From contig JAJEKV010000064.1 of NCBI GenBank assembly GCA_021234155.1, forward strand, positions 4,528,001-4,592,000: a stretch of DNA of 64,000 nt, read 5' to 3'. This stretch comes from Isoetes taiwanensis (taxonomy: Eukaryota; Streptophyta; Lycopodiopsida; Isoetales; Isoetaceae). This document shows, piece after piece, positions 9,913 to 54,904 of the stretch. A program made the translations under genes and the position numbers. The notes beneath the pieces are model-generated. The model made no database searches and was not told the origin of the DNA. It worked only from the letters and a program-made list of their open reading frames with translations. The first letter of the stretch is position 1; the number at the start of each line of letters is the position of its first letter.

Positions 9913-11472
9913 TGTGACGGCCCCAGCTCATTTACGATGCCCCGATCGTATACAAACTGAAGATCATCCCTCAAACCAGCATCTGCTCGCTGACATGAGG
10001 CCGTCCACCTAACACCGGGCCCTTGATGGTGGCCAAGAACCCGACGGGGAAGAATGGACGTGTCATTCATCCCGTCTCCCTCGGGATCGACCTAGCTGCG
10101 GAAGCGTAAACAAAACATGAGCACATGACATCAATCAACAATAACATACCCACCTCGAAGGGTGGTCCACCATATCACAATAGCTGCAACAACACATCAG
10201 TACATCAACATAACAGGGGGAAATCCTACCCAGGCTCAGACTCATGGGGAAAGACTGACGGCTTGGGGTCTCGTGTAGCAATGCGCACGTAATTCATGGC
10301 AAATGGATTTGGCTGGCATAGGAACATGGTCGTTGGGTAGTCCACTCCATCCGCCCCTCCTGTGCATACTTTGCAGATATTGGAGCCTGACCGTAGCCTG
10401 CTGGGTGAATAGCCAGAGGGGCTACTACTACTGGGTTGCATCTCCCCAGTCCCGATGAGGCAGGAGGAGATCACTCTCCTCCAGAAGGTTCATGCTAATC
10501 ACGGGCGAGCTAGAGCCCTTTGCCAGATATCGACTTGAACTCACCGGAAGATGACGATCACCCCACAGTATCGAGCCTATACCCCCGCCCCTCACGCAGT
10601 GCAGTGGTATTAGGCCTAGCTCCTGGCGTTCCCGGCCGTCGTTATGCGCCCGGATCAACAGCGTGATTAGACAAGCCCTCCCTTGTCGGCCGGTCTAGCT
10701 CCTCACCCACCCGGCCAAAGCGGGCTCTTATGCACAGGCCGCATTAATTGGGAATTAATGGGCTAAAACTAGGATCATACAACTACTTGGGCTCTGGGTC
10801 TCTACCCCCCTTCCCAATACACAAGAGTGGCGCATAGAATGTCAAAACATCATCACAAAGTAACTCAAAATAATAGAATACATCTATTCTAATCTACCTA
10901 ATCATACATGGTTAGGTTCCTTTGTTAGTGTCTATCATTCTTAGGTTTGTAGGGGTCGCCTATAGCTAAGAATGGATGCTAAACCTCTTTTGAAAGAGGC
11001 CCGATAACTTCGGATCTACCTATTGAATCAACCACCCACCCTCATCTTGGCTGGCTCCCCTCCCTCGAAAGCGTCCATCTTTGCTGATCTCGGCCCCTGC
11101 CTGATCTTGGATCGAGCTGCAACCTGGGAGATCCGACTTCTATGCTCCCGTTCAGACGGAAATGCATCCTCTGCTGCTCCAATCCGAGACTCAGGGGCTG
11201 AGAACTGAAAGGGTTTCCCTTTTAGGGTTTATGCCCCTTTATCCCCACGAATTTAGGGCTGGTCCCTTTTGGTCAATGGGTCATTGCCACGTGGCAAAAA
11301 GGGATTATATTCACATGTTGCTTTAACATGTGCAATATAATGGTTCACAAGGTCGTACCCTAGGGTACTACCCTTTACGGTCGCCGTGTACATGTCGTCT
11401 GAGTCGACATGTACTAGTGACGTGTTAGTATAATATATGTATTCATACCGTATGTTATGCTGGAACGTCACA
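9913..11472 (-). repeat. 3' LTR (1560 bp) of the 19-kb element
   Basis: It aligns along its whole length with 27483-29046. The part at 11220-11460 is almost identical to 28800-29030, whereas 10200-10770 carries many small indels and substitutions relative to 27790-28350. The outer end here lacks nothing: TGTGACGG at 9913 and CGTCACA at 11472. It carries four extra bases (TTCC) close to the 11472 end. Confidence 0.9.
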
Positions 11473-11485: not shown

Positions 11486-12027
11486 GAATTGATGCTGTCC
11501 GCAGCATCAGGAGTCTCCCCACCTTGGGCTCTTCCTGTCCTGCAACTAACTTGATGCATACAATTTATTACTATTATACTTACATATTTATCAAGATTAC
11601 CTTAAGGTAATATTTTTAAATCATTATTACGCCATTACATTATCAAATAACTTGTTAAAACGTAACTTCTATTAAAACAAGGTACTTATTAGTTTCTGTT
11701 ATCACAACATTTAGTTTATCACAATTTAACACTTTCATATACAATTATTATTTATTTATTTATTTTTTTTTTTGAGGGTAAGAGTATACTTTTATTATTA
11801 TAAGGTATAAGATACATCAAGTCCCCATATTTGGGAAGATAGGAAGAATTATGAGCAAAGATAGGAATTATAGGGATCCTCCATCATCGTGTACTCTGGA
11901 GGCTACCACCTCCTCTTCCCCACCACATGGGTACTATAAGGAGGATCATCTATCTTCTCCACATGGGTAAGTACTATAGAGTAAGGCAGCTTCCGTTCCA
12001 CGGCTGGATCATCCCTAAATTTAACAA

Positions 12028-14816
12028 TTAATCCTGAATAGCTACATCACTTACCACCATTTCAGTTGCTTCCATACTATCCGTACTGAGCCAGTGGCAC
12101 CTGAAGAAGGAATAGAAGCCTTCCAAGGTCCCGACTCTATCAAGTTCTCTATTATACCTCATACCTTTTTGTCTATGGTGTGCAAGAGCCATCATTGCAA
12201 CTTCCAAATTGAAGTAGTTTTTCAATTTTCCAATGCAGATCCCCAGCCCCCCATAGACAACATCGCAGCGGTGTTTCCAGACTACCCATATTGCAATGTT
12301 AACTAGCGAAGCTTCAATGCAGTTTATGTCCGAGGCCTGTATCAATTCTGGCCAGACCAGTTGTTGCATTGATAGACCAATAATGGGACTGACCCAATGC
12401 CAGAATTCTGTAATCTTTGGGCAGAAAATGAGGTGTCCAATAGATTCCCGATCTTGACAACCAAGTGGACATTTATCATCCCCTATGATATCCTTGTTAT
12501 AGAGCTTCTCTTTTGTGCTAAGCCCCTCCTGAAGGGCCAACCATCTGAAGAATTGAATCTTTCTAGAACATAAAGATTTCCAGGAGTTGGCTAAAACTGC
12601 TTTAGCTTCTCCATTATTTAATCCAAGCGTAATCTCAGCCTTTAATGGGGTATCCTCACCAAGAGATCGATATATCCTTGCGACACTGTAGTGCATATGC
12701 CCCTCAAGTAGCCAACTTTCTTGGGGTCCAGTAATCCCTGACACATTGATGACTCTTTCATGAATTTCTTTTAGCACTGCTCTATCTCCTTCCCCTGCAG
12801 AGGGTACTCTCCTTTTAAACTTGGTCCAGCAGATCCATCTGCCATTCTCCCAGAGATGTTGCAACTGTGTTATTCCATGGTTCTTCCATTTAATGAAAAT
12901 ACGAGGATGAGAGAGGGCTAGGGGCAGATCCTCCCGGTCCCAGACATTCGTATTCCAGAAGATACTGAACCCTCCCGCCTCTTTTGGAGGGAACATAGGG
13001 GTGAAGATGTGCTGAACTTCATTCCATGCCTGGAGAATTTTCCTCATCAGGGGACGCCCCGGGGGCGGTTTGAATTTATAAAAGAATGCTCCCAGCTCAT
13101 CTCGAGGGAGAGAGGGCTTACCTAGTAGTTTTCCTTGCTTCAGCCAGTATGATACAAACTTCAAAGCCGGAGACACCTCGCCTCCCTGCAGAGCTCTCCA
13201 GACAAATTTAGCTGCTAAGGCTTGAGGTTGTGTAAGAGGATCCTTGCAACCCAGCCCCCCATCTTTCTTATCACGACACAGCTCATTCCAGGCCACTTTG
13301 GCCATACCTCCCCAAATAAATTTTCTGATGATCACCTGTACTTGATTGTATATTCCTTTCTGTGCCACCAGCACCGAAGAATAGTAGATGTGAGAAGCAG
13401 CCAAAATTGCATTGGCCACAGTGACTCGCCCTGAAGTTACTAAGGCTTTGGAAGTCCATAAGCCCACCTTTTTCTTCAGCTTGTCCAGAATAGGGGCCCA
13501 CAATCCCTTCATAGAGTCGGATAGGACAAGAGGGAGACTCCAGAGTTTCTTGACTCCCCTGGGTGGCACCACTGGAAAGCCCAGACCTCTGGCTCGCGGA
13601 TCAATATCATTGTCTAATGCCCAAAGTACCGAGCACTTGTTGGCATTGAGGCCTATCCCTGATATTATCTCAAAGGAAAGTAGAATGTGTCGAAATGACT
13701 GGAAACTATTATCATCAAACCTGAGGAACATGAATGTGTCGTCAGCATACTGCATAATTGTCAGCTTCTCTGTTCCATCAGGGAAGGTCAGGCCCTCCAG
13801 GTTTCCTTCTGCCTGCTTTAATAGTACCATTCTTGTTAGCAGATTCGCCATGATGAGGAACATGTACGGCGCCAATGGGCATCCTTGCCTAATACCCCTC
13901 CTGAGATTAAAGGAGCCTGTAGGTTGACCATTTACTAGGACCGAAGCAGAGGCTAGATTGTTCATCCCCATAGCCATTTGAATAAATCGGAGGTCAAATC
14001 CTAAGTAGCTCATAACTTCTCGCAACCCTTCCCATCTAAGAGAGTCGTAGGCCTTTCTGAAGTCCATTTTGATAAGGACACAATTTTGCTTTGAGGCGTG
14101 ACACCAATGCAGTCCTTCTCTAGCTGCCAGGTAATTATCCAGAATGTTTCTTCCAGGTAGAAACGCAGATTGCTCTTTCCCGATTACTCTATTGAGAATA
14201 GGCTTTAGACGGTTAGCAATTACCTTCATAACCACTTTATACAGTACATTGGTGAGAGCAATGGGACGCCACTCCCCAATGTCTTGAGGTCTGGGTATCT
14301 TTGGGACTAAAGTAATGAATCCAGCAGCAAGAGATGGGTGTAAAGAACCTGAGATCCAAGCCCCTTGCACTGCTCGGGTGAAGTCATGGCCCAGCACATC
14401 CCAGAATTCTAGAAAGAACTCCGGAGGAAAGCCATCTGGTCCCGGAGATTTTCCTGCTGCCAGGGAACCAAGGGTTTTGTGAATCTCATCCCCCTCAGGA
14501 ATGCGAAGCAGGAGTTGGTTTTCTTCCTGAGTGACACCATCCCTCCAGTCAATTTTGCTCATCCAATCAGCTAGATTGGGATGGAATGAGGAGGGGAGGG
14601 GTTCCTCCTGGAATTGGTTCTCAAAGCTTCTGCTGATGAAGGATGAGATCTCTAGAGGATCCTCCAATATTTTCTGATTATCATCTCTAATTGACGAAAT
14701 ACTATTACCTGCTAGTCTAGCCCCGGCCATTCTGAAGAAGCATTTCAAGTTTTCATGGTCCATCTCAGCATACCATTTAGTTTTGGAGCGAACCGCCGCC
14801 CTCTGGCTTCTACTTC
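12028..14816 (-). CDS. LINE ORF2, C-terminal part: reverse transcriptase
   Basis: About 929 residues on the 3' side of the MITE. Domains in order: a pre-RT region (KTKWYAEMDHENLKCFF); RT with AAGKSPGPDGFPPEFF, EWRPIALTNVLYKVV, KMDFRKAYDSLRWEGL, RRGIRQGCPLAPYMF and the catalytic MQYADDTFMF; thumb and linker; and a C-terminal finger within CPLGCQDRESIGHLIFCP. RT copies element RNA onto nicked chromosomal DNA in the nucleus. The frame is open to its stop at 12028-12030. Its N-terminal join to the endonuclease half is lost because of the insertion at 14817-15076, so this copy is unlikely to make a full ORF2. The first residues of the open frame upstream of 14816 are MITE sequence, not LINE. Confidence 0.9.
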
Positions 14817-15076
14817 GGGTAAAAGCATGAAAGGGTGTACGTACATTGTACTGAATTGATGTACAAATATGGATACTTTTCATGTACATTTTGGTTATTT
14901 TTTATTTGTATAAACATACACTTTTCGATTTTATGTACTTTGCATATACATTTAAGCTAAATTTCGGATATGTTTTGGCTATGCATGTACTTTTTGGGTA
15001 CTTTGGGTGATTTGTGTAATATAGCCACATGTACCAAAAGGGATACATTTATAGACACCCTTTCATGCTTTTACCC
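14817..15076. mobile_element. 260-bp MITE inside LINE ORF2
   Basis: The left end begins GGGTAAAAGCATGAAA and continues for 22 bp as an exact inverted copy of the right end (15055-15076). The interior is AT-rich with repeated gtac-type words and no frame of its own. CTTC occurs on both sides (14813-14816 and 15077-15080), a possible 4-bp target duplication. It separates the endonuclease half of ORF2 from the RT half. The superfamily is not clear from the ends. Confidence 0.85.
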
Positions 15077-16130
15077 CTTCCTCAATCGCCTTAGCTTTCC
15101 CTTCGAATTCTTCCTCCAATTGCTGCATGTCAATATTATGGGGGTGTGCCAGCAGCTCCTGCTTAATTAGTCTCAACTGGTTATAGATCTCATTCTTTTC
15201 TCTTTTAAATTCCATAGCTCGATTCCTGCCCCACTTTTTGGCCCAGTCCTTCATTAAACAGAGCTTTTTTACCCAAGCTTTCATACTCGGGGAGTTTTCA
15301 GCATTGTTAAGAGAGGACACAAACTCTCTGAAGGGTTTGCAAAATGCCTCTTTCCCCAACCAGGATGTGTTGAATTTAAAAGGCACATTTCCAGTCTTCC
15401 TAGCTGTAGGAATACTTTCGAATATCAAACTTTGAGGAACATGATCAGAGTGTGAGAAGGCCAGCTCCCCTTCAACATAGCATTTATCCATGAAACATGC
15501 AGATTTATTAGCTATGTAGAATCTGTCTAATAAGCAATATACCCGGTCCTGACCCTTTTGCTTATTCGACCATGAGAACGCAGCATTAGAGGGAGGAATA
15601 AGAGCAAGCCCAACATTATTTAGCAGAGAGTTCCAAGTAGAGTCCTCAGCATCTGACAAATTTCTGTGCAACCCAATCTTCTGATCCCAAACATCAGTCA
15701 TGTTCAGATCCCCTCCAAGGATCCAATTATCAATAATATCCGCCTGTTGATTAATCCAACATTCAATTTCTTCCCACATAATAGATCTTTCTGCTGGCTT
15801 ATTGGAAGCGTATATGTTGATCATTCCCCATTTACACTCACTGCCTTCAAACATGACTGCTTGCCAGCGTCCATTCCTTCCAGCATATTGCCCAAGATGC
15901 ACAAGACCTTTCCAAAGTATACTGGTGCCCCCTTTGGTTCCTCGCGCCGCACAGCTGAAGGAGGTATAGTTATTGCCTACCCATTTGCCGATTGATCTAG
16001 CCTCAAAATCTGGCAGACGATGCTCCTGTATGAGCACAATATCTACATTCAAGGATCGTATGGTAGCTAGTACCCTGCCACGCTTAAGGACACCTTTTAT
16101 TCCGCGTAGGTTCCAGGAGACAATTTTCAT
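15063..16130 (-). CDS. LINE ORF2, N-terminal part: AP-type endonuclease
   Basis: ATG at 16130 gives MKIVSWNLRG, the usual opening of the apurinic-like endonuclease of L1-type LINEs. Other motifs: IQEHRLPDFEAR (catalytic Glu), GMINIYASN, WILGGDLNMTD, LLDRFYIANK and SHSDHVPQSL (Asp/His pair). All expected catalytic residues are present. The enzyme nicks target DNA to expose a 3' end for the RT. The frame is LINE sequence down to about 15077 and then runs a few codons into the MITE before stopping at 15063. It starts 10 nt after the ORF-E stop. Confidence 0.9.
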   Translation of the reverse strand: MKIVSWNLRGIKGVLKRGRVLATIRSLNVDIVLIQEHRLPDFEARSIGKWVGNNYTSFSCAARGTKGGTSILWKGLVHLGQYAGRNGRWQAVMFEGSECKWGMINIYASNKPAERSIMWEEIECWINQQADIIDNWILGGDLNMTDVWDQKIGLHRNLSDAEDSTWNSLLNNVGLALIPPSNAAFSWSNKQKGQDRVYCLLDRFYIANKSACFMDKCYVEGELAFSHSDHVPQSLIFESIPTARKTGNVPFKFNTSWLGKEAFCKPFREFVSSLNNAENSPSMKAWVKKLCLMKDWAKKWGRNRAMEFKREKNEIYNQLRLIKQELLAHPHNIDMQQLEEEFEGKAKAIEEGVKA

Positions 16131-16140
16131 GGAAGCAGGA

Positions 16141-16680
16141 TCATTGCTGCCATTGCTGCCATTCCTCAATTACTTTCATTGGATAAGGTACTTTAATTCT
16201 CCAACCCGAGTACCCAATGTGACCACCATCATTGTTTTGTACTAGACTTCTAGAAGTACTAGACCATATATGCCAAGGATCATTGGCTTGTGCCATCAAC
16301 ATCATCTCCCCACCCAACATTGTTATGCGCCCACTGAATCTAGCATACCCCCACCTTTGTGTGTACAGAGGCTTCCCATTGGGTCCACCAAATGATGGCC
16401 ACAAGTCTGTCTTATTAGGCACTTTTAGCCCTGCATAACTTCCCTCGACATAACTATTCTTTAGTATTGTAGAGCCTTCAATGCCTTTCATATTCCCATA
16501 AACCCATCTATTGACAGACCTCATTTCTACCCACCAAGGGGAATCTTCTTTTCTGCAGTATAGCTCCATATTTAGTGTAACGTCAACCACCCCTTTGTTG
16601 GTATTTTCATCAAGGTGTTGCGGTTCAAGGTTTATACTGTTGACTTTCTTGTGAGTAACAGATCTAAGCTGTATGTTCAT
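16141..16680 (-). CDS. ORF-E of the multi-ORF LINE, 179 residues, unknown
   Basis: An ATG-started frame that ends 10 nt before ORF2. No family is recognised. It is rich in Trp, Gly and Tyr in its middle (WWVEMRSVNRWVYGNMKG, LWPSFGGPNGKPLYTQRWGY) and ends with a Gln/Trp-rich tail. No signal peptide, zinc ligand cluster or nuclease motif was seen. Its place directly upstream of ORF2 on the same strand, and its being fully open in an element whose other frames are open, argue that it is coding. It could be a structural or RNA-binding accessory protein, or a captured host segment; this is a guess. Confidence 0.55.
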   Translation of the reverse strand: MNIQLRSVTHKKVNSINLEPQHLDENTNKGVVDVTLNMELYCRKEDSPWWVEMRSVNRWVYGNMKGIEGSTILKNSYVEGSYAGLKVPNKTDLWPSFGGPNGKPLYTQRWGYARFSGRITMLGGEMMLMAQANDPWHIWSSTSRSLVQNNDGGHIGYSGWRIKVPYPMKVIEEWQQWQQ

Positions 16681-16731
16681 GAGAAAGATGTAACTATAAA
16701 TTCCGATGCTACTATTACGATATAAAAAGGA

Positions 16732-17016
16732 TTACAAAATACTGATTGGGTCAACCGACCATCTTGAAAAAAGGCCAGCTCCAGCAATCAGAGGAATGAT
16801 ACTGGGACAAAGCCCATACAAAAAGGAACTGATAATCTGGCCAGGAGGCCAATACCTCAAGCCTGTTGCATCATTGGGATGCCAATCCCTCCCCAAACCA
16901 TTTTCGAAAGAGCTGCTCTTGGGTCCAGCACTTCCCTTCACATTACTCTGCACCTTACTTTTCTTGACATTTAGAACTTTCTGTTGAAGTCGGGACCAGT
17001 AGGCCGGATCCAACAT
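16732..17016 (-). CDS. ORF-D of the multi-ORF LINE, 94 residues, one predicted membrane segment
   Basis: The ATG lies only 4 nt after the ORF1 stop. The N-terminal two thirds are polar and basic (LNVKKSKVQSNVKG); near the C-terminus a hydrophobic run, IISSFLYGLCPSIIPLIAG, could span a membrane, and the protein ends shortly after it. No family is recognised. The very short spacing suggests termination-reinitiation from ORF1, as reported for some LINE and viral transcripts. It may also be a chance frame overlapping nothing essential, so confidence is moderate. Confidence 0.5.
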   Translation of the reverse strand: MLDPAYWSRLQQKVLNVKKSKVQSNVKGSAGPKSSSFENGLGRDWHPNDATGLRYWPPGQIISSFLYGLCPSIIPLIAGAGLFSRWSVDPISIL

Positions 17017-17020
17017 TTCT

Positions 17021-18595
17021 CTACACCTCCTTGAATCCTTCCGCTTTTGCATGATCATACAAGATCTTTGCAACAGCCGATTCAAAAGCATGCTTGTTTG
17101 GTTTCTTGTCAACACCTTTTTTTTTCTTCTTAGGACCATTGGCCAGGTATGTTTTGAGGGTCTGTTCATCTTCTGGTATGGACACTGCAGTGGGTATAGC
17201 AAGGGCTAATTGAGCAGACCGGCCCCCAGCTCCACCAGAAGCAGCTCCATCACTTGATTCATCCACCTTGCAGCCAGGTGCAACAGCTTGTGCATTCTTA
17301 GCGTGTTGCAGATCAACAGCGGCTCTTGCAGCCGCCTGAAAACGCTCTTGCAAGAAGAGAGCCTTATGTAGTTGATTTCCCTTAGGGGATACAGTTGGGC
17401 TTCGGATGATTTCCTCCAAAATCATGGCCCTTGGGCTGGGATCTTCAGGCATCGGATCGGCAGCAGAGGCTATTTGAGCAGACCGGCCCCCATCCCCATC
17501 AGAAGTAGCTCCATCACATGACTCGTCCGCCTTGAAGCTGGGAGCATCAGCTTGCATATCCTTAGCCTGTTGCTCACCCTTAGCCTGTTGCTGGTCATCT
17601 CTTGCAGCAGCCAGGGTGTTGGCCCTTAAGCTGGAATCTTCAGGCATCGGATCAGCCTCACAACTCTCTATGATCATAGCAACTATTGCTGAATGAGAGC
17701 TTAGGGGCTGTTGTGACAGCTCCCCCCCTATTGGGGTAAAAGAATGCTGATTTGCAGCTCCAGGAGTCTGAATCTCGGGGGCAGATGTAGGCAGATCTCT
17801 AGGCAGATCTGGGACCACAGGCTGGTCGTTTATGTGGACACCAGAGTTAGAGGTGCTGCCTCTGTACTTGCCATATTTGTTGACTTTAACAAAGCCTTCT
17901 TCATCTGAGATTGCAGCCACTGATTTCCCCTTAATATCCACATCCTTAGCCGCCCCGGAGTCACAGATTGGACCTGCATGAACCATAGCACCACATAGAT
18001 GGCATGGCATAGGGAGGCCAGAGATTTGGAGCTTGAATTCAATTCTCTCATTGTCGAAGCCCATGAAGAACAGAGATTCAGGGATGGGGTTGAAAATATT
18101 GACTGACACACAAATTTTAGGGGCTTCCTCAGTGCAGCCTCCCATGGAGACGAATTCCCCTAAAGGGGAGACAATGATCTTGAAGGCTTTCTCAGTCCAG
18201 AATTCAGAGCTGAGACTAGAAAGCGAGATCCAGATAGGATAAAAAAGAGCATTGGGATTGGTAGGATCAAACTTTGGCCGCCATCTTTGGAACAAAATCT
18301 GCCCATTAAGACATGTTACCACTCCTTTCTTGAAGACGAAGTCTGCATCTCTCTCTGATGAGAAAGAGACAAGTGCATAAAGGTTACCCAAAGGCAGCAC
18401 TCTGAGTTGGTTCTGACCTCGACAAAACCGCTGCAGCACCTTCTTAACTTCTGCCAGCGAAGGACTTCCCCTTATTATCTTGGCTATGAGCCCAAGATTG
18501 TTAAGATGGCGGGTTCTATTCGCCACCTCTGGGATACGAACAGAAAGAGAAGGGGTTCCCTCCGTATTCACTGCTGCATCTCCTGTCTGCTCCAT
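17021..18595 (-). CDS. LINE ORF1: DUF4283-like RNA-binding protein with zinc knuckle
   Basis: 524 residues from an ATG 12 nt after the ORF-B stop. The first 210 residues look like the DUF4283 domain of plant LINE ORF1 proteins (VLPLGNLYALVSFSSERDAD, LFQRWRPKFDP, PIWISLSSLSSEFW), followed by a CCHC knuckle in CHLCGAMVHAGPIC with spacing C-x2-C-x4-H-x4-C. The rest is Ala/Ser/Glu-rich with two related blocks of about 65 residues, each with MPED or IPED and a DGAxSxGxGGRSAQ segment, and ends with a basic KKKKK stretch. Known: such ORF1 proteins bind element RNA and form the particle with ORF2. Confidence 0.85.
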   Translation of the reverse strand: MEQTGDAAVNTEGTPSLSVRIPEVANRTRHLNNLGLIAKIIRGSPSLAEVKKVLQRFCRGQNQLRVLPLGNLYALVSFSSERDADFVFKKGVVTCLNGQILFQRWRPKFDPTNPNALFYPIWISLSSLSSEFWTEKAFKIIVSPLGEFVSMGGCTEEAPKICVSVNIFNPIPESLFFMGFDNERIEFKLQISGLPMPCHLCGAMVHAGPICDSGAAKDVDIKGKSVAAISDEEGFVKVNKYGKYRGSTSNSGVHINDQPVVPDLPRDLPTSAPEIQTPGAANQHSFTPIGGELSQQPLSSHSAIVAMIIESCEADPMPEDSSLRANTLAAARDDQQQAKGEQQAKDMQADAPSFKADESCDGATSDGDGGRSAQIASAADPMPEDPSPRAMILEEIIRSPTVSPKGNQLHKALFLQERFQAAARAAVDLQHAKNAQAVAPGCKVDESSDGAASGGAGGRSAQLALAIPTAVSIPEDEQTLKTYLANGPKKKKKGVDKKPNKHAFESAVAKILYDHAKAEGFKEV

Positions 18596-18607
18596 AGAAT
18601 GAGAGGT

Positions 18608-18988
18608 CTAATAAGTTTCGAGCCAGAAGAGACCTTCTTGCAGCCAAGAGCAGGAGACAAGAAAAGACTGGGTGGGAATGGCCTCTGTATCTGAGAATAA
18701 GAGAAGCCTAACTAGTCTTCTCACAAAGAAAGGATCCCTTATTATGGCAAATCCTCCTGCACAAAGGAACTGGTCGTTGTAGACTATTCTGCTGTCAATA
18801 ATGGACGCCCACAGCTGGTCCACTGGCCCTTGGATGGTCCCCCACCAAATATACTCTGTGTTAACCAAGATAACAGGTCGAGTGATGGAAGGCACTTCCA
18901 GGAATGATGACTGGGATGATAAAGGCGATAGAGAGGATTCTGCAGATAGCTGGGGGCTTGAATCAGTAGAGAAAACCAAATACTCCAT
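18608..18988 (-). CDS. ORF-B of the multi-ORF LINE, 126 residues, related to ORF-A
   Basis: An ATG-started frame 18 nt after the ORF-A stop, ending 12 nt before ORF1. A Ser-rich N-terminus is followed by a domain that can be aligned by eye with ORF-A: matching positions include VI near the start, a Gly pair, D-LWA, D, DP, LR, F and a C-terminal LExY. No known family is recognised. The shared pattern between two adjacent frames points to duplication of a real coding unit rather than chance. Confidence 0.55.
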   Translation of the reverse strand: MEYLVFSTDSSPQLSAESSLSPLSSQSSFLEVPSITRPVILVNTEYIWWGTIQGPVDQLWASIIDSRIVYNDQFLCAGGFAIIRDPFFVRRLVRLLLFSDTEAIPTQSFLVSCSWLQEGLFWLETY

Positions 18989-19006
18989 AATGGGACCGCA
19001 TCAGCA

Positions 19007-19378
19007 TCAGGCTGGTCTGTAGAGCTCCAGCGTTATAAAATCTGCCAGAAAATCAGAATAGAGCATGAACTTGGCAAGAGGAGGACGATCAGAACCCAAA
19101 TATGCTGTTCTGAGCTCTATAGCAGATGCAAGAGGGTCCTCAGTAGGGCCAGATTGCTCCCCAACAAAGAATATGTCAGGGAAATTGCTCTCATCCACCA
19201 GGAAGGCCCACAAATCGACTGTTGCTCCTTCTAGCCAGCCACAACAGATTTGATGACCACTGTAGAAGATGACAAAGTATTTGGAGCTATCTGCTGCAGT
19301 TGAAGTTGATGGAGATGGAGGGGATGAAGAACTAGAGGCCGTGGAACATGCAATAAACAAAGGAAGTGGCAGGCCCAT
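19007..19378 (-). CDS. ORF-A of the multi-ORF LINE, 123 residues, related to ORF-B
   Basis: First frame of the element. It starts at ATG 19378, with a Ser/Pro-rich stretch (residues about 12-30), then a domain with YFVIFYSGHQICCGW, VDLWAFLVDE, EDPLASAIELRTAY and LITLELY-like end (ITLELYRPA). It resembles ORF-B in residue pattern and length. Function unknown. About 535 nt of 5' leader separate it from the predicted element start at 19914. Confidence 0.55.
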   Translation of the reverse strand: MGLPLPLFIACSTASSSSSPPSPSTSTAADSSKYFVIFYSGHQICCGWLEGATVDLWAFLVDESNFPDIFFVGEQSGPTEDPLASAIELRTAYLGSDRPPLAKFMLYSDFLADFITLELYRPA

Positions 19379-19914
19379 CAACTCCAGTCATCTAAACCAG
19401 AGAGAAGAGCAGAATAAGGCTGAAGCTTGATTCAAGTTTGAGCAAAAAAAAGCTTTGATGCAGTAATACTAGCAGAGAACGATAATCCATTCGAGCAAAG
19501 GGGGGATTAAGTAGCCAAAATTCTGCCCCTACAGGCTATTCTAGTAGAGAGGCAGGCATAGCTCTTGTCCTGCCATATCCAGCAGAATCGGCGGGCAATG
19601 ATAGAGAAAAGTCTCGGTCAAAGGGCCTTGAACAGCCGCCCTATTCTTCTGTTCCTAAGAAAAGATTGTCCCCCCCTACAAGGGGCGACATTATAGCTCA
19701 GCAGATCACCAGGCTTTTGCCTTTGGATTCACGAAGAACCAGGGGCAGGACAGCCAGACTTCCAGCCGTTAGCTGCAGTAACCAGACCACTGATTTATTC
19801 CCCTGTAATCATGGACCACAAGGGACCTCGATCATGGCGCGGCAACAGCATCGTCCTTGACCATCGCTTCCGGCTCCTCAGAGGCACTTTTTTCCCACCC
19901 CACAAAAGGAATTC
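19379..19914 (-). other. Predicted 5' leader of the multi-ORF LINE
   Basis: Non-coding on the element strand and richer in G and C than the AT-rich DNA it is inserted in. It should hold the internal promoter if the element is like other LINEs; no promoter motif was identified. The boundary at 19914 rests on the TTATTATTTA match with 11745-11754. Confidence 0.45.
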
Positions 19915-19924
19915 TTATTATTTA

Positions 19925-27482: not shown

Positions 27483-29046
27483 TGTGACGGCCCCAGCTCA
27501 TTTACGATGCCCCGATCGTATACAAACTGAAGATCATCCCTCAAACCAGCATCTGCTCGCTGACATTGAGGCCGTCCACCTAACATCGGGCCCTTGATGG
27601 TGGCCAAGAACCCGACGGGGAAGAATGGACGTGTCATTCATCCCGTCTCCCTCGGGATCGACCTAGCTGCGGAAGCGTAAACAAAACATGAGCACATGAC
27701 ATCAATCAACAATAACATACCCACCTCGAAGGGTGGTCCACAATATCACAATAGCTGCAACAACACATCAGTACATCAACATAACATGGGGAAATCCTAC
27801 CCGTGCTCGGACTCATGGGGAAAGACCGGCGGCTTGGGGTCTCCAGGTAGCAATGCGCAGGCAAATTCATGGCAAATGGATTTGTGGCATAGGAACATGG
27901 TCGTTGGGTAGTCCACTCCATCCGCCCCTCTGTGCATACTTTGCGGATAGGCTGAAAAGTATTGGAGCCCCGACCGTAGCCTTACGGGTGAATAGCGGAG
28001 GGGCTACTACTACTTGGGTTGCATCTCCCGGCCCCGATGAGGCGAGGAGGAGATCACTCTCCTCCGAAGGTTCATGCTAATCGCAGGCGAGCTAGAGAGC
28101 CCTTTGCCAGATATCGACTTGAACTCACCGGAAGATGACGCATCACCCCCGAGTGTCGAGCCCATACCCGCCCTCACGCAGCGATTGCTGTGGTATTAGG
28201 CCTAGCTCACTGGCGTTCCCCGGCCGTCGATTCTGCGCGGCGGATCAACCGTGATTAGACAAGCCCTCCCTTGTCGGCCCGGTCTAGCTCCGCCACCCAC
28301 GGCCGGGCGGGCTCTTATGCGAGCCGCGTGGTGGGAATTAATGGGCTAAAACTAGGATCATACAACTACTTGGGCTCTGGGTCTCTACCCCCCTTCCCAA
28401 TACACAAGAGTGGCGCATAGAATGTCAAAACATCATCACAACAGAACTCAAGGTAATAGAATACATCTATTCTAATCTACCTAATCATACATGGTTAGGT
28501 TCCTTTGTTAGTGTCTATCATTCTTAGGCTGTAGGGGTCGCCTATAGCTAAGAATGGATGCTAAACCTACTGAAAGAGGCCTGATAACTCGGATCTACCT
28601 ATTGAATCAACCACCCACCCTCATCTTGGCTGGCTCCCACTCCTCTGAAAGCATCCATGCTGCTGATCTCGGGTCTGCTGATCTTGGATCGAGCTGCAAC
28701 CTGGGAGATCCGACTTCTATGCTCCCGTTCAGGCGGAAATGCATCCTCTGTTGCTCCAATCCGAGACTCAGGGGCTGAGAACTGAAAGGGTTTCCCTTTT
28801 AGGGTTTATGCCCCTTTATCCCCACGAATTTAGGGCTGGTCCCTTTTGGTCAATGGGTCATTGCCACGTGGCAAAAAGGGATTATATTCACATGTTGCTT
28901 TAACATGTGCAATATAATGGTTCACAAGGTCGTACCCTAGGGTACTACCCTTTACGGTCGCCGTGTACATGTCGTCTGAGTCGACATGTACTAGTGACGT
29001 GTTAGTATAATATACGTATTCATACCGTATGTTATGCTGCGTCACA
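27483..29046 (-). repeat. 5' LTR (1564 bp) of the 19-kb element
   Basis: Partner of 9913-11472. It ends CGTCACA at 29046 followed directly by AGGCA. It differs from the other LTR mainly by clustered indels in a GC-rich part (27790-28350). Confidence 0.9.
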
Positions 29047-30682
29047 AGGCACCTGTTTCTTGACTCCCAATGCCTCGCACAAAAACAACTTAAGAACCCC
29101 CTCTATTTTGCTCCAGAGCTTTCCGGAGATAGATGGCCCCCATATGGGAGATCCATAAAGCACAACCGTTTGAACCAAGGTTCGAAAAAGCATTTTACGC
29201 AAGTGCCATTTGCAAACCTGCCTTATGACATCTCCTCAGCATGCTATATAGTGTCGCTTTACCTCCTGCTATTCTCTTCATGATGCACTCCTTCCAACTG
29301 TAATTAGAGCTAACCTCTAAACCCAAATATTTGTATGTATCAACTACCTCCAATTTATCTGTCCCATAAAAGAAGTCTGTTTTTGCCACAGTCCCAAAAA
29401 TCATGCATTTTGTTTTTGACATGTTTACCTTCATACTCTGATCTTTAGAGAACAGCTCCACGCTATCTAGATGTACTTATATGCCCATTGGATTTTCTGA
29501 AATAAGAACCACATCGTCAGCATACATCAATAACTGAATTAAGTAAGTAGTTACCAAGAGGCGCCCCTGTTTGTCCTTTTATACGTATCCATTCTTCTAA
29601 AGAATCAATGTAAAGCCCAAAGAGCGTCGGCGACAAGGGGCAACCTTGTTTCACACCAATTGTACTTTTGATTTTATCTGGAAGTTTTACTGAAACTTTT
29701 GCAATGACCTCTTCATACAGTCGCAAGGATGCCGGGATACCTAATCGTTCCATTCTTTCCTGCAATCCCCCCTTGGAACGGAATCAAATGCCTTTGTGAA
29801 ATCAATGAAGGCCAAATACAACGCTTTTCTAGGACGTTTTGCCCTCTCAATAAGACAGCGGAGTGTCATGATATGGTCATAAGTGTTGTGGTTCCTTCGA
29901 AAACCAGCCTGACATACTGCTCTCTTGCCCTTTTCCTCCGTCCAGTCACTTATTTTACGTTTAAGTAAACCACCAAAAATTTTTGCAAACATGCTACTAA
30001 CCATAATTGTGCGGTAGCTGTGTACATCATGCTTATCACCTGATTTGAAAATAGGTACTACCTTGCAAACTTGCCATGCTCTAGGAAAACTGTCTTTAGC
30101 TGCTCTATTCAAGACTGCAGTTAAACATGAGATCATACAATCCCCTTCCCATTTCAATAATTCGGCTGAGAGCCCATCTATGTCTAATGCTTTACCATTA
30201 GACATTGCCCCCAGGTAATCCTGTACCTCTGATTTGGTGAATAGATCTTCATGCACCTCAATTTCTTTCATGGCAGTAGCCCCAGGAACATAATAAACTT
30301 GCCGGACAAATTCCAGCAACTCACCTACATTTAAAGCCATATGATCATGATCCAATTGAGTGGTAGCCCAGAATCTCATGGGCTCTTCTTCTAACAGTGC
30401 CTCTAGCTTCAATTGACGAGTTCGCTAGAAAGATCTTTTCTTCCTCTTCAAAAACTTCTTATACTAGCTCGGTTTAAATTTCAGATCTTTTGTTAAAGAT
30501 TTCCGCATCTCTGAGCACTCCAGATCCCACCAGGATTTAGACCGCTTTGCTGACCTATGCTTCGTCATTCCAAAACTCTGTTTGGCAGCACCCAAAATCG
30601 CATTGGTTAGCACCATTGCATCAATTTCAGTCCCGCTCTCTACCAAGCTTTTCAATTTGCCTTTCAAAGCTTTCTTGATATA
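29047..30682 (-). mobile_element. RT part of the LINE split by the 19-kb element
   Basis: On the minus strand from about 30670: WWDLECSEMRKSL (pre-RT region), MSNGKALDIDGLSAELLKWE, HSYRTIMVSSMFAKI, AFIDFTKAFDSVPR, GVKQGCPLSPTLFGLYIDS, and VDTYKYLGLEVSSNYSW, which follows the catalytic block. A stop or frame change interrupts several places (about 30412, 29740, 29510), so it is inactive. The endonuclease half is missing because the gypsy element starts at 30683. The other half of this LINE is at 8915-9912. Confidence 0.82.
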
Positions 30683-35783: not shown

Positions 35784-36263
35784 CCATGGCAGTCTTTTTC
35801 TTTATTGGCTCATTCACCTAAACACATGGGTGTTAAAGAGATTTTAGCTTGTAGCTTTTAAGATTCTTGTAGCTTGTAGCTTTTAAGATTCTTATGATTA
35901 AAATCCACTTCCTTCTCTTAATGGATTTATTGGTGCATCCAAAGTGAGTTCTCAAAACCGTGCATGCTTCCGATTAAAAACTTATAGGGTCTCATGACTG
36001 CAACTACTTACACTACATGTCAAATTGATCTTCAGGCTTAGATCCCGTCTCCAGGAACCAAATTTATAATAACTCATTAGTCTTAGAATTATTAAGCTTC
36101 TATGTTACAATTTCCTAGTTACAAAGTTCAACAAAGCAAGTTCTTACATGTATATTCGTGTCTTGTGTTTCACCCAAATCTCTTGCAGCTGTGTCTGAAC
36201 TTACTCTATGGATAGTTTGCACCAGATCCATGCCTTGGTGCTTCCATATTTCCCTTTTTGGAT
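35784..36263. repeat. 480-bp duplicated segment, copy A1
   Basis: It matches 47293-47772 over exactly 480 bp with only scattered substitutions and no net length change. It contains an internal short tandem repeat (gcttgtagcttttaagattc twice, near 35848-35890), which copy B1 also has in slightly altered form. No coding sequence. Confidence 0.85.
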
Positions 36264-39200: not shown

Positions 39201-39576
39201 GACACACGGTAAAACTTTATTATATAGGATGTATTTCAATATGGTCATATGCATTAACCTTAAAAAAATATGATTTTTTGCTTATTTCTTATATATTTAT
39301 ATCGTAAAAGATGTATGAATGGGTTATCACTAGACAGATCTTGTGAAGACGAACACATTGCTACAAAAAGTTTTTGAATCGGAGTTCTGGATCAAAAGTT
39401 ATAATGAAAAAATGATACTACAGAAGTTAGTTGTAGCTGCATTAATTACAAGCTGCCACATAATACTGGAATGAGATATACTGGAGCTCTTCTCTTATTG
39501 GACAGTTTAAAAAGCTGACATGGCATTTTAAGCATCCCTTAATGGGACAAAATGTGATCTCATTTTTCCTCTAATG
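36264..39576. other. Non-coding region with several small tandem duplications
   Basis: Direct duplications: a 62-bp unit starting gcaatgcactaagtg at 36836 and 36898; a 23-bp unit starting attccttgtgcatgg at 37055-37077 and 37078-37100; a 68-bp unit starting tgattgcaac at 37184 and 37252; a gatagag run at about 37458-37485; and a unit of about 50 bp with gtctgtg(t/c)gcagctaggg near 38968 and 39008. A minus-strand frame at 36739-36443 shows no known domain. No gene is supported. Confidence 0.5.
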
Positions 39577-40680
39577 TCTATGTGGACTATTGGCAGTATC
39601 GGATGTAATTCGATATTGTTTTTGGCCACGCCCTTCCACCCATGTCTACTGCAAATTCCGTGGTGGTCAGTACCACTGCCACCAAAACCTCTCGATACCT
39701 CCACTTGCTACATCTATCCATCCCCTTACACAGAGATGATGGGTCCTTGTAGGTTTGTTTTGATTCAAGAATGGTATGGAGGTGATCATCTACTGTCTTG
39801 GTCAGACAAAATTTTCACTCTTCTATTAGGACGTGTCCATCTAGGAGAGGAGAAGGTAGCATAAAATCTGCCTCTTATAGTAGAGGTAGGTGTCGCAGAA
39901 AGGCTGGCTTGTGGCTTCCACAAGGATATTTGTAAAGGCACGGACCTTGTCAGCTCCATATATCATATCCTCTTAGCTTTGGCTCCGCAGCCCCTTTTCC
40001 ACTGCCAAGTGGGTTGCACTTGCAGATTCTAGAACCTAATCGGATCGTACATGTTGTTGGCTTTGGGATAAGTTTCTCCATCGCAAAGTGTCTGTGTTTT
40101 GATGGTAGGTTATCCATAGGTGCCTGCGCATTAATGCCTTGAGGAATCGCTATGATCTTGGCACATCTGCAATATGCCCACTTTGCTTTTCAGAGGTTGA
40201 GACTATTGAGCATTGCCTCTTTGCTTGTTCAAAATTCTAACCAGCATGCTCCTGGTCGACAAGGTTTATTTAACAGTGCACTAGATTCCAATGTGCTCTC
40301 TTGACGTCCTATCCTACCGCATTGCCCACAGCTAAGCAAAAGGCATCTCTTTTTGGTTTTGGTTGGCTGCTCTGGTCAATCTAGTAGCGTCAAAGATGCC
40401 ACATTTTCCACGGCATTTATTCATTTGCTCATAGAGTCATTGCCGTCGCCCAGACTAAGATGCTAATGGGTTATAGATGTTCTTCCCTAGAGTCAGACGC
40501 GAACGTTCGTATTTGGGTTTAGTGCCTTTAAATTAAGTCTTACAACTAGTCTCCTCTATTAGAGTAAGACAAGGTCTTCATGCTCGTGTTCTAGAGGCAT
40601 CTCCTTGTGCTTACATAGATAGATGAGATACTTACATTCTTGATTGCTAACCTTCTTTTTCGGTCCTTCAAAAAAGGGTT
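39577..40680 (+). mobile_element. LINE 3' remnant in copy A2
   Basis: Corresponds to the LINE tail described at 52075-53400. The Cys/His finger region here reads in broken frame around 40120-40240 and is more damaged than the B2 copy. It ends near a T-rich run at 40680-40690. Confidence 0.65.
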
Positions 40681-41149
40681 TTTTTTTTTTAGGGGGAGAA
40701 GAGGGAGGGGGGATGAAAGCAAGCATACTATTCAAACAAGTATTTTAAATAGATAAATCTAACTAAATTAGACCGCGTTATTTAGATTAAGTTACTATTT
40801 CTTGTTCATTCAAACTAAAATATACAAAATTTGTCATCATTCAAAAATTAAAATTTACTTTTTAGTAAAGAAATAGGCGTCTCATGCCGCATAATCATTG
40901 GCCTACTCATCTTTAGGAAGGTTCATGAAATCAAATATCGAAAAGTCGCATTATCAAAATTCACACTCTAGATCTTGCTCATTTATTGGTCCAATGGTAT
41001 AGCTTGCATATCCACAACAAACACATCTTTCAGTCAACTTCATTTACAACTAAAAAAAGGCACACGTTTTTGTATTAGTAGTATTCATTAAAATGCTCAT
41101 ATTTTATACCCTTTTGAATGGCTTAAGATAACTTTGTGCTGACATTCAG

Positions 41150-41475
41150 TGTATTTGGAACTGGACTCGGACTTGTTTTCGCTATCACCTTAATAGCCAG
41201 CAGTTGACATTGTGTTTGTTTCTTGCAAATTGGCTGAAGAAGCTTGCTTTTAACATCTACAGGGCTATCATTTGTTGGGTAGAAGAGAAGAAATCAGCTC
41301 ATCTTTAGAGGAAGTTCTCTAATGCTTACCCTTTACTCAAAGAAGTTAACTTTAGGTTGCACAATTACTCAATTTTCTACGTTATGGATGAGGAGGACAT
41401 GATTTAGAGGGTTATCTTCGCCTCTTCTAATCCTTTCGTGTTGTACATTTTTTTTCTATAAAATTAGTTTTTGAT
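41150..41475 (+). mobile_element. Second LINE 3' remnant in copy A2
   Basis: Reads KLAFNIYRAIICWVEEKKSA and RKFSNAYPLLKEVNFRLHN, the kind of sequence at the very C-terminus of LINE ORF2, followed by a 3' end with cttttcgtgt-like and tataaaattag words. Frames are broken. The same remnant is at 53880-54215. Confidence 0.5.
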
Positions 41476-42083
41476 GCCTCCACCCCCCCCCAGTCAAAAT
41501 GCTTGCATTTTCCACTTAAAGGGATTTGAAGAGTTTTACTATTTTGTTGGACGGTTTCTTCTTCAATATTCAACCTTTTCATTTCGCTCCACTTCATCAA
41601 AATAGAATGCGTCATAAGAATATGTAAGATCGAAGAGAAAATGAACTAAAGTGCTTCTAGTTTGAATTGAGCCAAAAATTGATGAAGACTGCTTACCAAT
41701 GGAATCCCCACTTTTCGAGTAGGAATAGCTTGAGCCGTATTTGTATAACATACCTATTATGATTTCTAAAAGTTGTTGGAGGCAGCTAAAGCATATATAG
41801 CCAAACTATGTTTAATAGTTTGTCCTAGAGGCAAGTTATATTGGGGTAGGTGGATATAAAAACAAACATCTTAATTCAAGGGCCAATGTAGGAAATAAAG
41901 CATGATGGGTGGACCCCTGCTATGTTGTTCCCTTAAAAGTAAATAAATAAATAAAGTCTATTTTTTATCCCTAAAAAAAATAAAAAATAAAGCATATTTT
42001 TGGGTAGGAAGTAAAGCATAAGTGCTGGAATTGAAAATTCACAGGAATTTTTGTGAAGGAAATATTCGTGCTCTAAAAACATT

Positions 42084-47292: not shown

Positions 47293-47772
47293 CCATGGCA
47301 GCCTTTCTCTTTATCGGCTCATTCACCTAAACACATGGGTGTTAAAGAGGTTTTAGCTTGTAACTTTTAAGATTCTTGTAGCTTGTAGCTTTTAAGATTC
47401 TTATGATTAAAATCCACTTCCTTCTCTTAATGGATTTATTGGTGCATCCAAAGTGAGTTCTCAAAACCATGCATGCTTCCGATTAAAAACTCATAGGGTC
47501 TCATGACTGCAACTACTTACACTACATGTCAAATTGATCTCCAAGCTTAGACCCCGTCTTCAGGAACCAAATTTATAATAACTCATTAGTCTTAGAATTA
47601 TTAAGCTTCTATGTTACAGTTTCCTAGTTACAAAGTTCAACAAAGCAAGTTCTTACATATATATTCGTGTCTTGTGTTTCACCCAAATCTCTTGCAGCTG
47701 TGTCTGAACTTACTCTATGGATAGTTTGCACCAGATCCATGCCCTGGTGCTTCCATATTTCCCTTTTTGGAT
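47293..47772. repeat. 480-bp duplicated segment, copy B1
   Basis: Partner of 35784-36263, at an offset of 11,509 bp from first base to last. No coding sequence. Confidence 0.85.
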
Positions 47773-52074: not shown

Positions 52075-53400
52075 AAAATGGTTTGGTCCAAATGCATTCT
52101 TCTAAGTCTTGATATGATGGACTCCTCACTGCAGAGCAAGGTCCTCATTTCAAAATTCATATGAAGGATCTTGAATGATGAAGATGACTCTCCTATTTTC
52201 TCTTAAACATTATAATCCTCTAAGCAAGAATGTTGTTAAACTAGTTTTATCTTGGGCATTGTTTTGTCCTTTGCAGCCTTTCCCAAATGCTTCTCCATTT
52301 CTACGTGGACTATTGGCAGTATCGGATGTAATTCAATATTGTTTTTGGCCACGCCCTTCCACCCATGTCTACTGCAAATTCCGTGGTGGTCAGTACCACT
52401 GCCACCAGAACCTCTCGATACCTCCATCCATCCCCTTACACAGAGATGATGGGTCCTTGTAGGTTTGTTTCGATTCAAGAATGGTATGGAGGCGATCATC
52501 TACTGTCTTGGTACGAGTTTCAGACAAAATTTTCACTCTTCTGTTAGGACGTGTCCATCTAGGAGAGGAGAAGGTAGCAGAAAATCTGCCTCTTATAGTA
52601 GAGGTTGGTGTCGGAGAAAGGCTGGCTTTTGGCTTCCACAAGGATATTTGTAAAGGCACGGACCTTGTCAGCTCCATATATCATATCCTCTTAGCTTTAG
52701 CTCCGCAGCCCCTTCCACTGCCAAGTGGGTTGCACTTGCAGATTCTAGAACCCAATCAGATCATACATGTTGTTGGCTTTGGGATACGTTTCTCCATCCC
52801 AAAATGTCTGTGTTTTGATGGTAGGTTATCCATAGGTGCCTGCGCATTAATGCCTTGAGGCATCGCTATGATCTTGGCACATCTGCAGTATGCCCACTTT
52901 GCCTTTCAGAGGTTGAGACTAATGAGCATTGCCTCTTTGCTTGTTCAAAAGTCTAACCAGCATGCTCCTGGTCGACAAGGTTTATTTAACAGTGCATTAG
53001 ATTCCCAATGTGCTCTCTTGACGTCCTATCCTACCGCATCGCCCACAGCTAAGCAAAAGGCATCTCATTTTGGTTTTGGTTGGCTGCTCTGGTCAATCTG
53101 GTAGCGTCAAAGATGCCACATTTTCCAGGGCATTTATTCATCTGCTCATAGAGTCATTGCAGTCGCCCAGACTAAGATGCTAATGGGTTATAGATGTTCT
53201 TCCCTAGAGTCAGACGTGAAAGTTCGTATTTGGGTTTAGTGCCTTTAAATTAAGTCTTACAACTAGTCTCCTCTATTAGAGTAAGACAAGGTCTTCATGC
53301 TCGTGTTCTAGAGGCATCTCCTTGTGCTTACACAGATAGATGAGATACTTACATTGTATAATTTTTACTCTTGATTGCTAACCTTTTTTTTTCGTCCTTC
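52075..53400 (+). mobile_element. LINE 3' part: end of ORF2 with Cys/His finger
   Basis: LQSKVLISKFI (after the RT domain), NASPFLRGLLAVSDVIQ, a long linker, and a finger reading CLRINALRHRYDLGTSAVC, then PLCLSEVETNEHCLFAC, stopping at a TAA soon after. Relative to the related LINE at 62108-63450 the motif order is the same. Several frameshifts (near 52465 and 52860) make it inactive. From 52300 on it is shared with the A2 block at 39577. Confidence 0.7.
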
Positions 53401-54904
53401 AAAAAAAAGGGTTTTGATGGGGTTGGGGGATGAAAGCAAGCATACTATTCAAACAAGTATTTTAAATAGATAAATCTAACTAAATTAGACGGCTTTATTT
53501 TATTTTGTCCACCTTAGATTAAGTTACTATTTCTTGTTCATTCAAACTAAAATATACAAAATTTGTCATCATTCAAAAATTAAAATCTACTTTTTAGTAA
53601 AGAAATAGGCGTCTCATGCCACATAATCATTGGCCTACTCATATTTAGGAAGGTTCATGAAATCAAATATCGAAAAGTCGCTTTATCAAAATTCACACTC
53701 TAGATCTTGCTCATTTATTGGTCCAATGGTATAACTTGCATATCCACAACAAACACATCTTTCAGTCAACTTCATTTTACAACTAAAAAAAGGCACACAT
53801 TTTTGTATTAGTAGTATTCATTAAAATGCTCATATTTTATACCCTTTTGAAGGCTTAAGATAACTTTGTGCTGACATTCAGTGTATTTGGAATTGGACTC
53901 GGACTTGTTTTTGCTATCACCTTAATAGCCAGCAATTGACATTGTGTCTGTTTCTTGCAAATTGGCATCGTCTGAAGAAGCTTGCTTTTAACATCTATAG
54001 GGCTATCATTTGTTGGGTAGAAGAGAAGAAATCAGCTCATCTTTAGAGGAAGTTCTCTAATGCTCACCCTTTACTCAAAGAGGTTAACTTTAGATTGCAC
54101 AGTTACTCAATTTTCTACTTTACGGATGAGGACATGATTTAGAGGGTTATCTCTCATCTAATCCTTTCGTGTTGTACATTTTTTTTCTATAAAATTAGTT
54201 TTTGATGCCACCCCCCCCACCAAAAAAAAAGGGGGGGTAGTCAAAATGCTTGCATTTTCCACTTAAAGGGATTTGAAGAGTTTTACTATTTTGTTGGATG
54301 GTTTCTTCTTCAATATTCAACCTTTTCATTTCGCTCCACTTCATCAAAATAGAATGCGTCATAAGAATATGTAAGATGAAGAGAAAATGAACTAAAGTGC
54401 TTCTAGTTTGAATTGAGCCAAAAATTGATGAAGAGTGCAATAAGCTTGTAACTTTGGCCATGCAGGCTGGTCCTACTATCTGCTAAAATCCCACAAGTTG
54501 TATAGTTTGTCGGTATCATGCTTATCAATGGAATCCCCACTTTTAGAATAGGAATAGCTTGAGCCATATATGTATAACATACCTATTATGATTTCTAAGA
54601 GTTGTTGGACGTAGTTAAAGCATATATAGCCAAACTATGTTTAATAGTTTGTCCTAGAGGCAAGTTGTATTGGGGTAGGTGAAAATAAAAACAAACATCT
54701 CAATTCAAGGGCCAATGTAGGAAATAAAGCATGATGGGTGCACCCCCGTTACGTTGTTCCCATAAAAGTAAATAAAATCTATTTTTTATCCCTAAAAAAA
54801 ATAAAAAATAAAGCATATTTTTGGGTAGGAAGTAAAGCATAAGTGCTGGAATTGAAAATTCACAGGAATTTTTGTGAAGGAAATATTCGTGCTCTAAAAA
54901 CATT
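52300..54904. repeat. 2.6-kb duplicated block, copy B2
   Basis: Partner of 39577-42083. The offset is 12,723 bp at the start and 12,821 bp at the end. It contains the same two LINE 3' remnants and the same AT-rich sequence between them, plus an insertion of about 78 bp near 54434-54520 absent from copy A2. It ends 243 bp before the LRR gene start. Confidence 0.85.
53880..54215 (+). mobile_element. Second LINE 3' remnant in copy B2
   Basis: Same sequence as 41150-41475 with small changes; LKKLAFNIYRAIICWVEEKK is readable here because this copy has four bases (gcatcgtc region, about 53965) that copy A2 lacks in part. Confidence 0.5.

Follow-up and report, generated by a model that had tools for sequence, protein, structure and literature searches.

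Plant L1 elements, a kind of long interspersed nuclear element (LINE), have been described with two open reading frames (ORFs) (PMC9033089, PMC11288735). SART1 and mammalian LINE-1 are cited for termination-reinitiation (PMC5972666), and for rice tungro bacilliform virus (RTBV) leaky scanning through two ORFs without internal AUGs is described, which is also predicted for badnaviruses (PMC5902531). Here we describe a LINE of Isoetes taiwanensis, studied in a copy at positions 11755..19914 of a 64-kb stretch of this genome (the window). In addition to ORF1 and ORF2 the copy carries the small frames ORF-A and ORF-B before ORF1 and the frames ORF-D and ORF-E before ORF2. We conclude that it is probably a full-length plant L1-like LINE which is polycistronic and has four conserved proteins, namely A, B, ORF1 and ORF2, of which ORF1 would be reached by leaky scanning or restart and ORF2 via a readable bridge.

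Results and Discussion

The window copy contains six tightly packed minus-strand frames in the order ORF-A, ORF-B, ORF1, ORF-D, ORF-E and ORF2, with stop-to-start gaps of 18, 12, 4, 51 and 10 nt, just as a sequence-only reading of the window had described them. In this copy A, B and ORF1 lie in one common reading frame and are set apart by stops only, and D and E share a frame that is divided by a single TAA. Codon statistics of the single sequence, which were trained on ORF2 and hence are not independent, gave no support for A, B and D (z 0.0, 0.8 and 0.5) and weak support for E (z 2.4), so that other copies were needed for comparison. Searching the genome of the window (1,658,258,908 bases in 1,110 contigs) with ORF-B resulted in 327 candidates and 150 scored matches with identities from 100 to 36%, about 111 of them without a stop by hand count. 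From the 24 best matches besides the window, 20 were analyzed as full loci of ~9.9 kb each. A is matched directly upstream of B in 19 of them, L022 being the exception, ORF1 in all 20 and the first part of ORF2 in 18, with no match in L020 and L024 and an identity of only 26% in L017. Among 20 more distant loci, picked by hand and ~1 kb each, a B frame is seen in 15, and an A frame that is not truncated and has 70 codons or more in 12.

For close pairs the ratio of nonsynonymous to synonymous change (dN/dS, here w) is 0.05-0.28 for A and B together (0.06-0.17 for A alone and 0.05-0.28 for B). The neutral median in simulations using the observed changes is 0.59-0.71, and off-frame values in the nucleotide alignments of copies are mostly above 0.5. 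Because of this comparison with other copies, i.e. the matches, the position of A beside B and a w far below neutral, A and B are judged to be real coding genes under strong purifying selection. The sequence-only reading had suggested an undescribed LINE lineage with additional frames and had proposed to look for these frames in other copies and to determine their dN/dS. A and B are indeed present there with a dN/dS far below 1, and the idea of a lineage with extra selected frames thus holds for these two, whereas the idea of six protein genes is not supported.

A profile of 27 A sequences and a profile of 31 B sequences align over 85 columns with a probability of 95.9 and an E value of 6e-9, and the A profile retrieves 31 of 31 B sequences with E values from 2e-10 to 0.005, as calculated for that small set. 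By this profile comparison, A and B are paralogues in tandem. The start motif of A, MGxPLP, has M1, G2, P4, L5 and P6 invariant in 16 members, and in B the residues W49, G50, G54, W60 and D65 are conserved. The N-terminus of ORF-A (19378 downwards), starting with MGxPLPL, may resemble an F-box-like motif known from certain viral suppressors of silencing. Seven distant B copies (L036, L040, L041, L042, L043, L044 and L046) carry a long Pro/Ser-rich N-terminal extension and have a total length of 143-181 codons. In L021, A, B and part of the 5' untranslated region (UTR) are present twice in tandem before ORF1 (oriented 298-1009 and 1407-2187).

No Pfam family was found for A, B, D and E of the window, nor in 16 A and 16 B members. 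A profile search against the PDB gave best E values of 0.88 for B and 0.17 for A, both taken as chance, and so was the best PDB match of ORF-E (E 0.041 across 29 residues). In the protein database, ORF-B as query led to four candidates, none at E 10 or better, and ORF-E to nine, none at E 1 or better, and ORF2 led to plant LINE proteins with 22-38% identity among the matches listed. As these identities are so low, the Isoetes genome seems to be absent from this database, and the blanks for B and E therefore say little about close relatives. The genome contig collection gave six pattern matches and no relative for ORF2, and the viral contig collection gave no match for ORF-B. For ORF-A one partial match in the viral collection (L049, IMGVR_UViG_3300028829_003722; 40% across residues 27-57) is probably due to chance. 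Single-sequence AlphaFold2 models were too poor for use, with a mean predicted local distance difference test (pLDDT) score of 49.2 and 41.5.

In the clade-1 copies L019, L026, L024, L027 and L023 the similarity starts ~430-450 nt before A; in L021 it starts somewhat later. Target-site duplications are present at the ends of the unit in L019 (14 bp) and L009 (12 bp), L026 shows a 17-bp repeat not adjoining an A run, and none was found for L010, L021 and L027. Judged by these boundaries, A and B lie inside the mobile unit and travel with the element. Using DUF4283 as query we obtained 4,271 first-look candidates in the genome and scored 150 of them, and for 46 of these a B match from the list of 150 lies on the same strand, 447-717 bp upstream. 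For 36 of the other 104 loci (16 of high rank and 20 picked by hand) ~1.5 kb upstream were read, and 7 turned out to have a divergent A/B, 28 an unrelated region X and 1 neither of them. Six of these 36 loci served to construct the X profile, and four of them, all recovered before by the unwidened A and B profiles, went into the widened versions. Region X comprises ~230-450 codons before DUF4283 (L052, L056, L060, L067, L072 and others) and showed no Pfam family above the cut-off in two members. As X shares one open frame with DUF4283 in some copies (662 codons at L052 and 649 at L072), this suggests that the X group might be a conventional LINE with a long ORF1. At the sampled loci, A/B is, by these profile matches, present in one LINE group of the genome and absent from another DUF4283 group. 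In a reverse transcriptase (RT) tree of 55 rows ten A/B loci form one group with a support of 100/100 and a long stem; apart from these loci, the tree contains proteins retrieved with ORF2 as query.

ORF-D and ORF-E of the window show no match at E 1e-3 in 19 of the 20 other full loci, and L014, the closest relative, matches only the last 17 residues of E. Other copies do possess open frames before ORF2 with up to 433 codons, which are alike within clades, and for some pairs the alignment stays in a single frame over a considerable length. These E counterparts have a w of 0.47-0.92, inside the neutral simulation range in all ten comparisons, and their codon positions change about equally, as in the off-frames. 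On both counts, the missing matches and the neutral dN/dS, the earlier proposal of E as a protein gene is not supported. Stops are rare in these frames: in seven of eight pairs there are 0-4 stops in the frame, the terminal stop included, versus 9-32 in the other frames, and in the eighth pair (L026/L024) the frame is lost, with 13 and 9 stops. In the simulation the stops expected and seen were 6.0/0, 5.8/0, 2.8/0, 8.3/1, 9.9/0, 5.8/0, 7.1/1, 2.4/1, 5.3/0 and 9.9/3, with P at most 0.0085 in eight of the ten comparisons and 0.042 and 0.30 in the two least diverged. Without selection for long frames, the frame of L024 meets three stops in total in six other clade members, a number from which the local alignment may have skipped some. 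In 9 of 15 loci the open stretch leading to ORF2 is longer than the 99% level obtained with resampled sequence (in four more loci the longest frame is that of ORF2 itself). In 14 of the 15 the end of this stretch is located between -38 and +32 nt relative to the ORF2 ATG, a weak sign as a TGA is always available there, ORF2 starting with ATG-A. D-like frames of clade 1 (62-75 codons) show a w of 0.32-0.97 over 50-74 codons, and the one pair simulated had a w of 0.97 in a neutral range of 0.31-2.44. By these comparisons, ORF-E is not conserved at the protein level; change in its counterparts is like that of neutral DNA, except that stops are avoided.

The junctions between the frames are short in many copies. 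From the stop of A to the ATG of B the median is 12 nt, with 25 of 26 copies within -4 to +45 nt and A running on in L017. From the stop of B to the next ATG in any frame it is 2 nt (range -4 to 44) in 32 of 35 copies, as three copies with a B not longer than 110 codons were dropped. B and ORF1 are joined by TAATG in L051 and separated by 7 nt in L062 and 53 nt in L065. In ten copies the B stretch contains 12 ATGs, ten of them being starts, versus 64.6 by dinucleotide resampling, and A contains 31 versus 70.4. The count is not reduced in the 5' UTR of ten copies (79 versus 77.2, with several 5' ends being approximate) and in ORF1 of seven copies (219 versus 217.5). When the protein is kept, out-of-frame ATGs amount to 24 versus 63.8 in B and to 32 versus 48.4 in A. 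Within the group of the window, 14 of 16 B copies are free of internal ATGs in any frame. The start of A has a T at -3 in 18 of 26 copies and the start of B an A or G in 21 of 31. The reinitiation considered in the sequence-only reading is plausible from the median of 2 nt after B, but the shortage of ATGs in B is a pointer to leaky scanning, at least in part.

We favour leaky scanning together with a stop-start restart for B and ORF1, and a restart after the bridge for ORF2, a route for all four proteins that we infer from the DNA. A single polycistronic RNA would carry A, B, ORF1, the bridge and ORF2. Ribosomes missing the weak start of A and the start of B would scan the nearly ATG-free B and reach ORF1, and ribosomes ending B could start again at the ATG that follows within a few nt. 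In the D/E stretch readability would be maintained while the protein sequence is free to vary, which might allow ribosomes to pass through, terminate close to the ORF2 ATG and reinitiate. As a guess, A and B could play a role in the ribonucleoprotein or against host silencing. A bolder reading, which we consider somewhat less likely than not, would regard the whole as a virus-like polycistronic programme with an A/B duplicate without known relatives, an ORF1 reached via the ATG-free B and an ORF2 reached via a bridge kept translatable while its amino acids drift. If true, the bridge would be an open reading frame that serves by being read rather than by coding for any particular protein. Such a frame, held open while its amino acids are unconstrained, would, if confirmed, clearly exemplify selection for the passage of ribosomes as such.

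Several observations weigh against this account. In the nucleotide alignments two further A/B rows have a w of 0.30 and 0.39, above the range given for the close pairs (with very few changes and a frame-shifted copy), and the decayed copy L014 shows a w of 0.90 for A. GTA is depleted in A even more than ATG (13 versus 42.9), which makes the ATG test noisy, and the copies are related. Internal ATGs are present in 11 of 15 distant B copies (absent in 4) and in A of 21 of 27 copies (absent in 6). The 5' UTR has ~8 ATGs per copy, which plain cap scanning would need a way past, and a structured leader was not supported in the two leaders folded (z -1.62 and -1.34 versus shuffles). A leader that keeps its ATGs and is not unusually folded argues against simple scanning while lending no support to shunting. 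Regarding the bridge, the simulated pairs had mostly been chosen for long open frames in both copies and the comparisons share sequences, and in 6 of the 15 loci the open stretch before ORF2 remains within the 99% range of resampled sequence.

An ordinary two-ORF LINE, in which the extra frames are due to chance or are decayed remnants, would agree with the codon statistics lacking support for A, B and D and with the two ORFs described for plant L1 elements, but we consider it highly improbable in view of the conservation and w of A and B and the homology between them. For A and B it is refuted, and chance frames are rejected for both by conservation and by w compared with the neutral simulation; for the amino-acid sequence of E it is true in a weak sense. 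We also rejected the possibility that A, B and ORF1 are a single long protein broken by decay, as the aligned 27 A and 31 B sequences agree in their starts and C-terminal ends and as the gaps are of variable length, with the result that the relative frames are not the same in all copies.

A and B might also be real proteins whose translation uses separate RNAs, spliced RNAs or an internal ribosome entry site, in which case the packing would be mere compactness. The number of ATGs in the 5' UTR, which is near expectation, is in line with this idea, but there would then be no reason for the short gaps of a few nt seen across many lineages in 32 B copies, or for the ATG shortage in B, which makes the idea unlikely. 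Six independent protein genes on one LINE RNA, with D and E evolving fast and perhaps being constrained in composition only, appear quite unlikely as well. E counterparts that are open for up to 433 codons and avoid stops, the pairs aligning in one frame over long distances and the weak codon bias of E in the window (z 2.4) can be cited in favour of this, whereas the E-counterpart w equal to the neutral simulation in all ten comparisons, the about equal change of the codon positions and the lack of counterparts of the window D and E in 19 of 20 loci contradict it. The polycistronic element with four conserved proteins remains our preferred explanation. A LINE is generally considered to manage with one or two proteins, and a lineage with two further selected ones at 150 or more places in one genome poses the question what these are for. 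Its many stop-start junctions, in intact as well as broken copies, might serve as a natural series on reinitiation and leaky scanning in a plant.

Layout of the window copy

The copy has a length of 8,160 bp, with a 260-bp insertion counted in. It is a full-length LINE flanked by an exact 10-bp target-site duplication (TAAATAATAA), the inner ends of which are 11755 and 19914 (Table 1). ORF2 is not one open frame in this copy, as it is broken by the 260-bp insertion, which the sequence-only reading had overlooked.

Table 1: Features of the LINE copy and its flanks (positions in the window).
Feature	Position	Strand	Basis or remark
Target-site duplication, 5' side of the element	19915..19924		exact 10-bp repeat TAAATAATAA
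5' UTR, 536 nt, 9 ATGs	19379..19914	-	partly common to L014, L009 and L010
ORF-A, 123 codons, predicted accessory protein, paralogue of B	19007..19378	-	copies, w, A-B homology
ORF-B, 126 codons, predicted accessory protein, 0 internal ATGs in any frame	18608..18988	-	genome matches, w, ATG count
ORF1, 524 codons	17021..18595	-	DUF4283 and CCHC; matched in 20/20 full loci
DUF4283 in ORF1	18119-18463	-	Pfam PF14111, E 3e-18
CCHC knuckle C-X2-C-X4-H-X4-C in ORF1	17963-18004	-	read by eye
ORF-D, 94 codons, first part of the ORF1-ORF2 interval, candidate frame	16732..17016	-	no match in 20 other full loci
ORF-E, 179 codons, putative readable bridge to ORF2, not conserved as protein	16141..16680	-	copy comparisons and simulation
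ORF2, first part, endonuclease; last codons inside the inserted element	15063..16130	-	Pfam Exo_endo_phos, E 3e-10, domain ~15537-16121
Inserted 260-bp element splitting ORF2	14817..15076		perfect 22-bp terminal inverted repeats
ORF2, second part; listed ORF starts within the inserted element	12028..14889	-	RVT_1 and zf-RVT
Reverse transcriptase in ORF2	~13624-14286	-	Pfam RVT_1, E 6e-31
zf-RVT in ORF2	~12400-12600	-	Pfam, E 5e-10
3' UTR and A-rich tail	11755..12027	-	3' UTR partly common to other copies
Target-site duplication, 3' side of the element	11745..11754		exact 10-bp repeat

As DNA, the insertion folds far better than shuffles (z -4.7). The linker of ORF1 contains a 112-nt direct repeat (17198-17309 and 17462-17573, 81% alike). 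Elsewhere in the window there are three pairs of long direct repeats, 35784-36263 / 47293-47772 (97% alike), 39574-41692 / 52297-54438 (92%) and 9913-11462 / 27483-29039 (93%), which are probably nested retrotransposons. A weak RT-like match to ORF2 at 29565-30229 (21-29% identity, E 1e-5) is a remnant of another retroelement.

Comparison with known systems

In literature searches on extra ORFs, polycistronic LINEs and LINEs of Isoetes or lycophytes, which mostly covered listings and abstract openings, no such element was found. The Isoetes element has the endonuclease and RT in ORF2, the DUF4283 and CCHC knuckle in ORF1, the A-rich 3' end and the variable target-site duplication of a plant L1-like LINE, and departs from a two-ORF element by A and B as additional selected frames. 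Celine from poplar, an example of the plant L1 LINEs with DUF4283, resembles the window copy in its DUF4283 ORF1, in an ORF2 with endonuclease and RT, in the A-rich tail, the target-site duplication and a 5' UTR of about half a kilobase. It is described with two ORFs (PMC11288735), whereas the Isoetes element adds two conserved proteins before ORF1 and a readable stretch before ORF2. The region-X group shares the genome and DUF4283 with the A/B group and differs from it by the unrelated X upstream (28 of the 36 sampled loci) and by having neither A nor B.

Regarding translation, RTBV and the badnaviruses are similar in the two small ORFs that precede a longer one and in the tight junctions, and in part in the scarcity of internal ATGs, which are absent from most B copies of the window's group but present in most distant ones. 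No protein similarity to them was found, and the Isoetes element differs as it is no pararetrovirus, its leader is not unusually structured and A contains internal ATGs in most copies. In silkworm SART1 and mammalian L1, stop and start overlap or lie close together, as in the TAATG between B and ORF1 of L051. These elements have two ORFs with a reported coupling (PMC5972666), whereas in the Isoetes element the coupling is a prediction.

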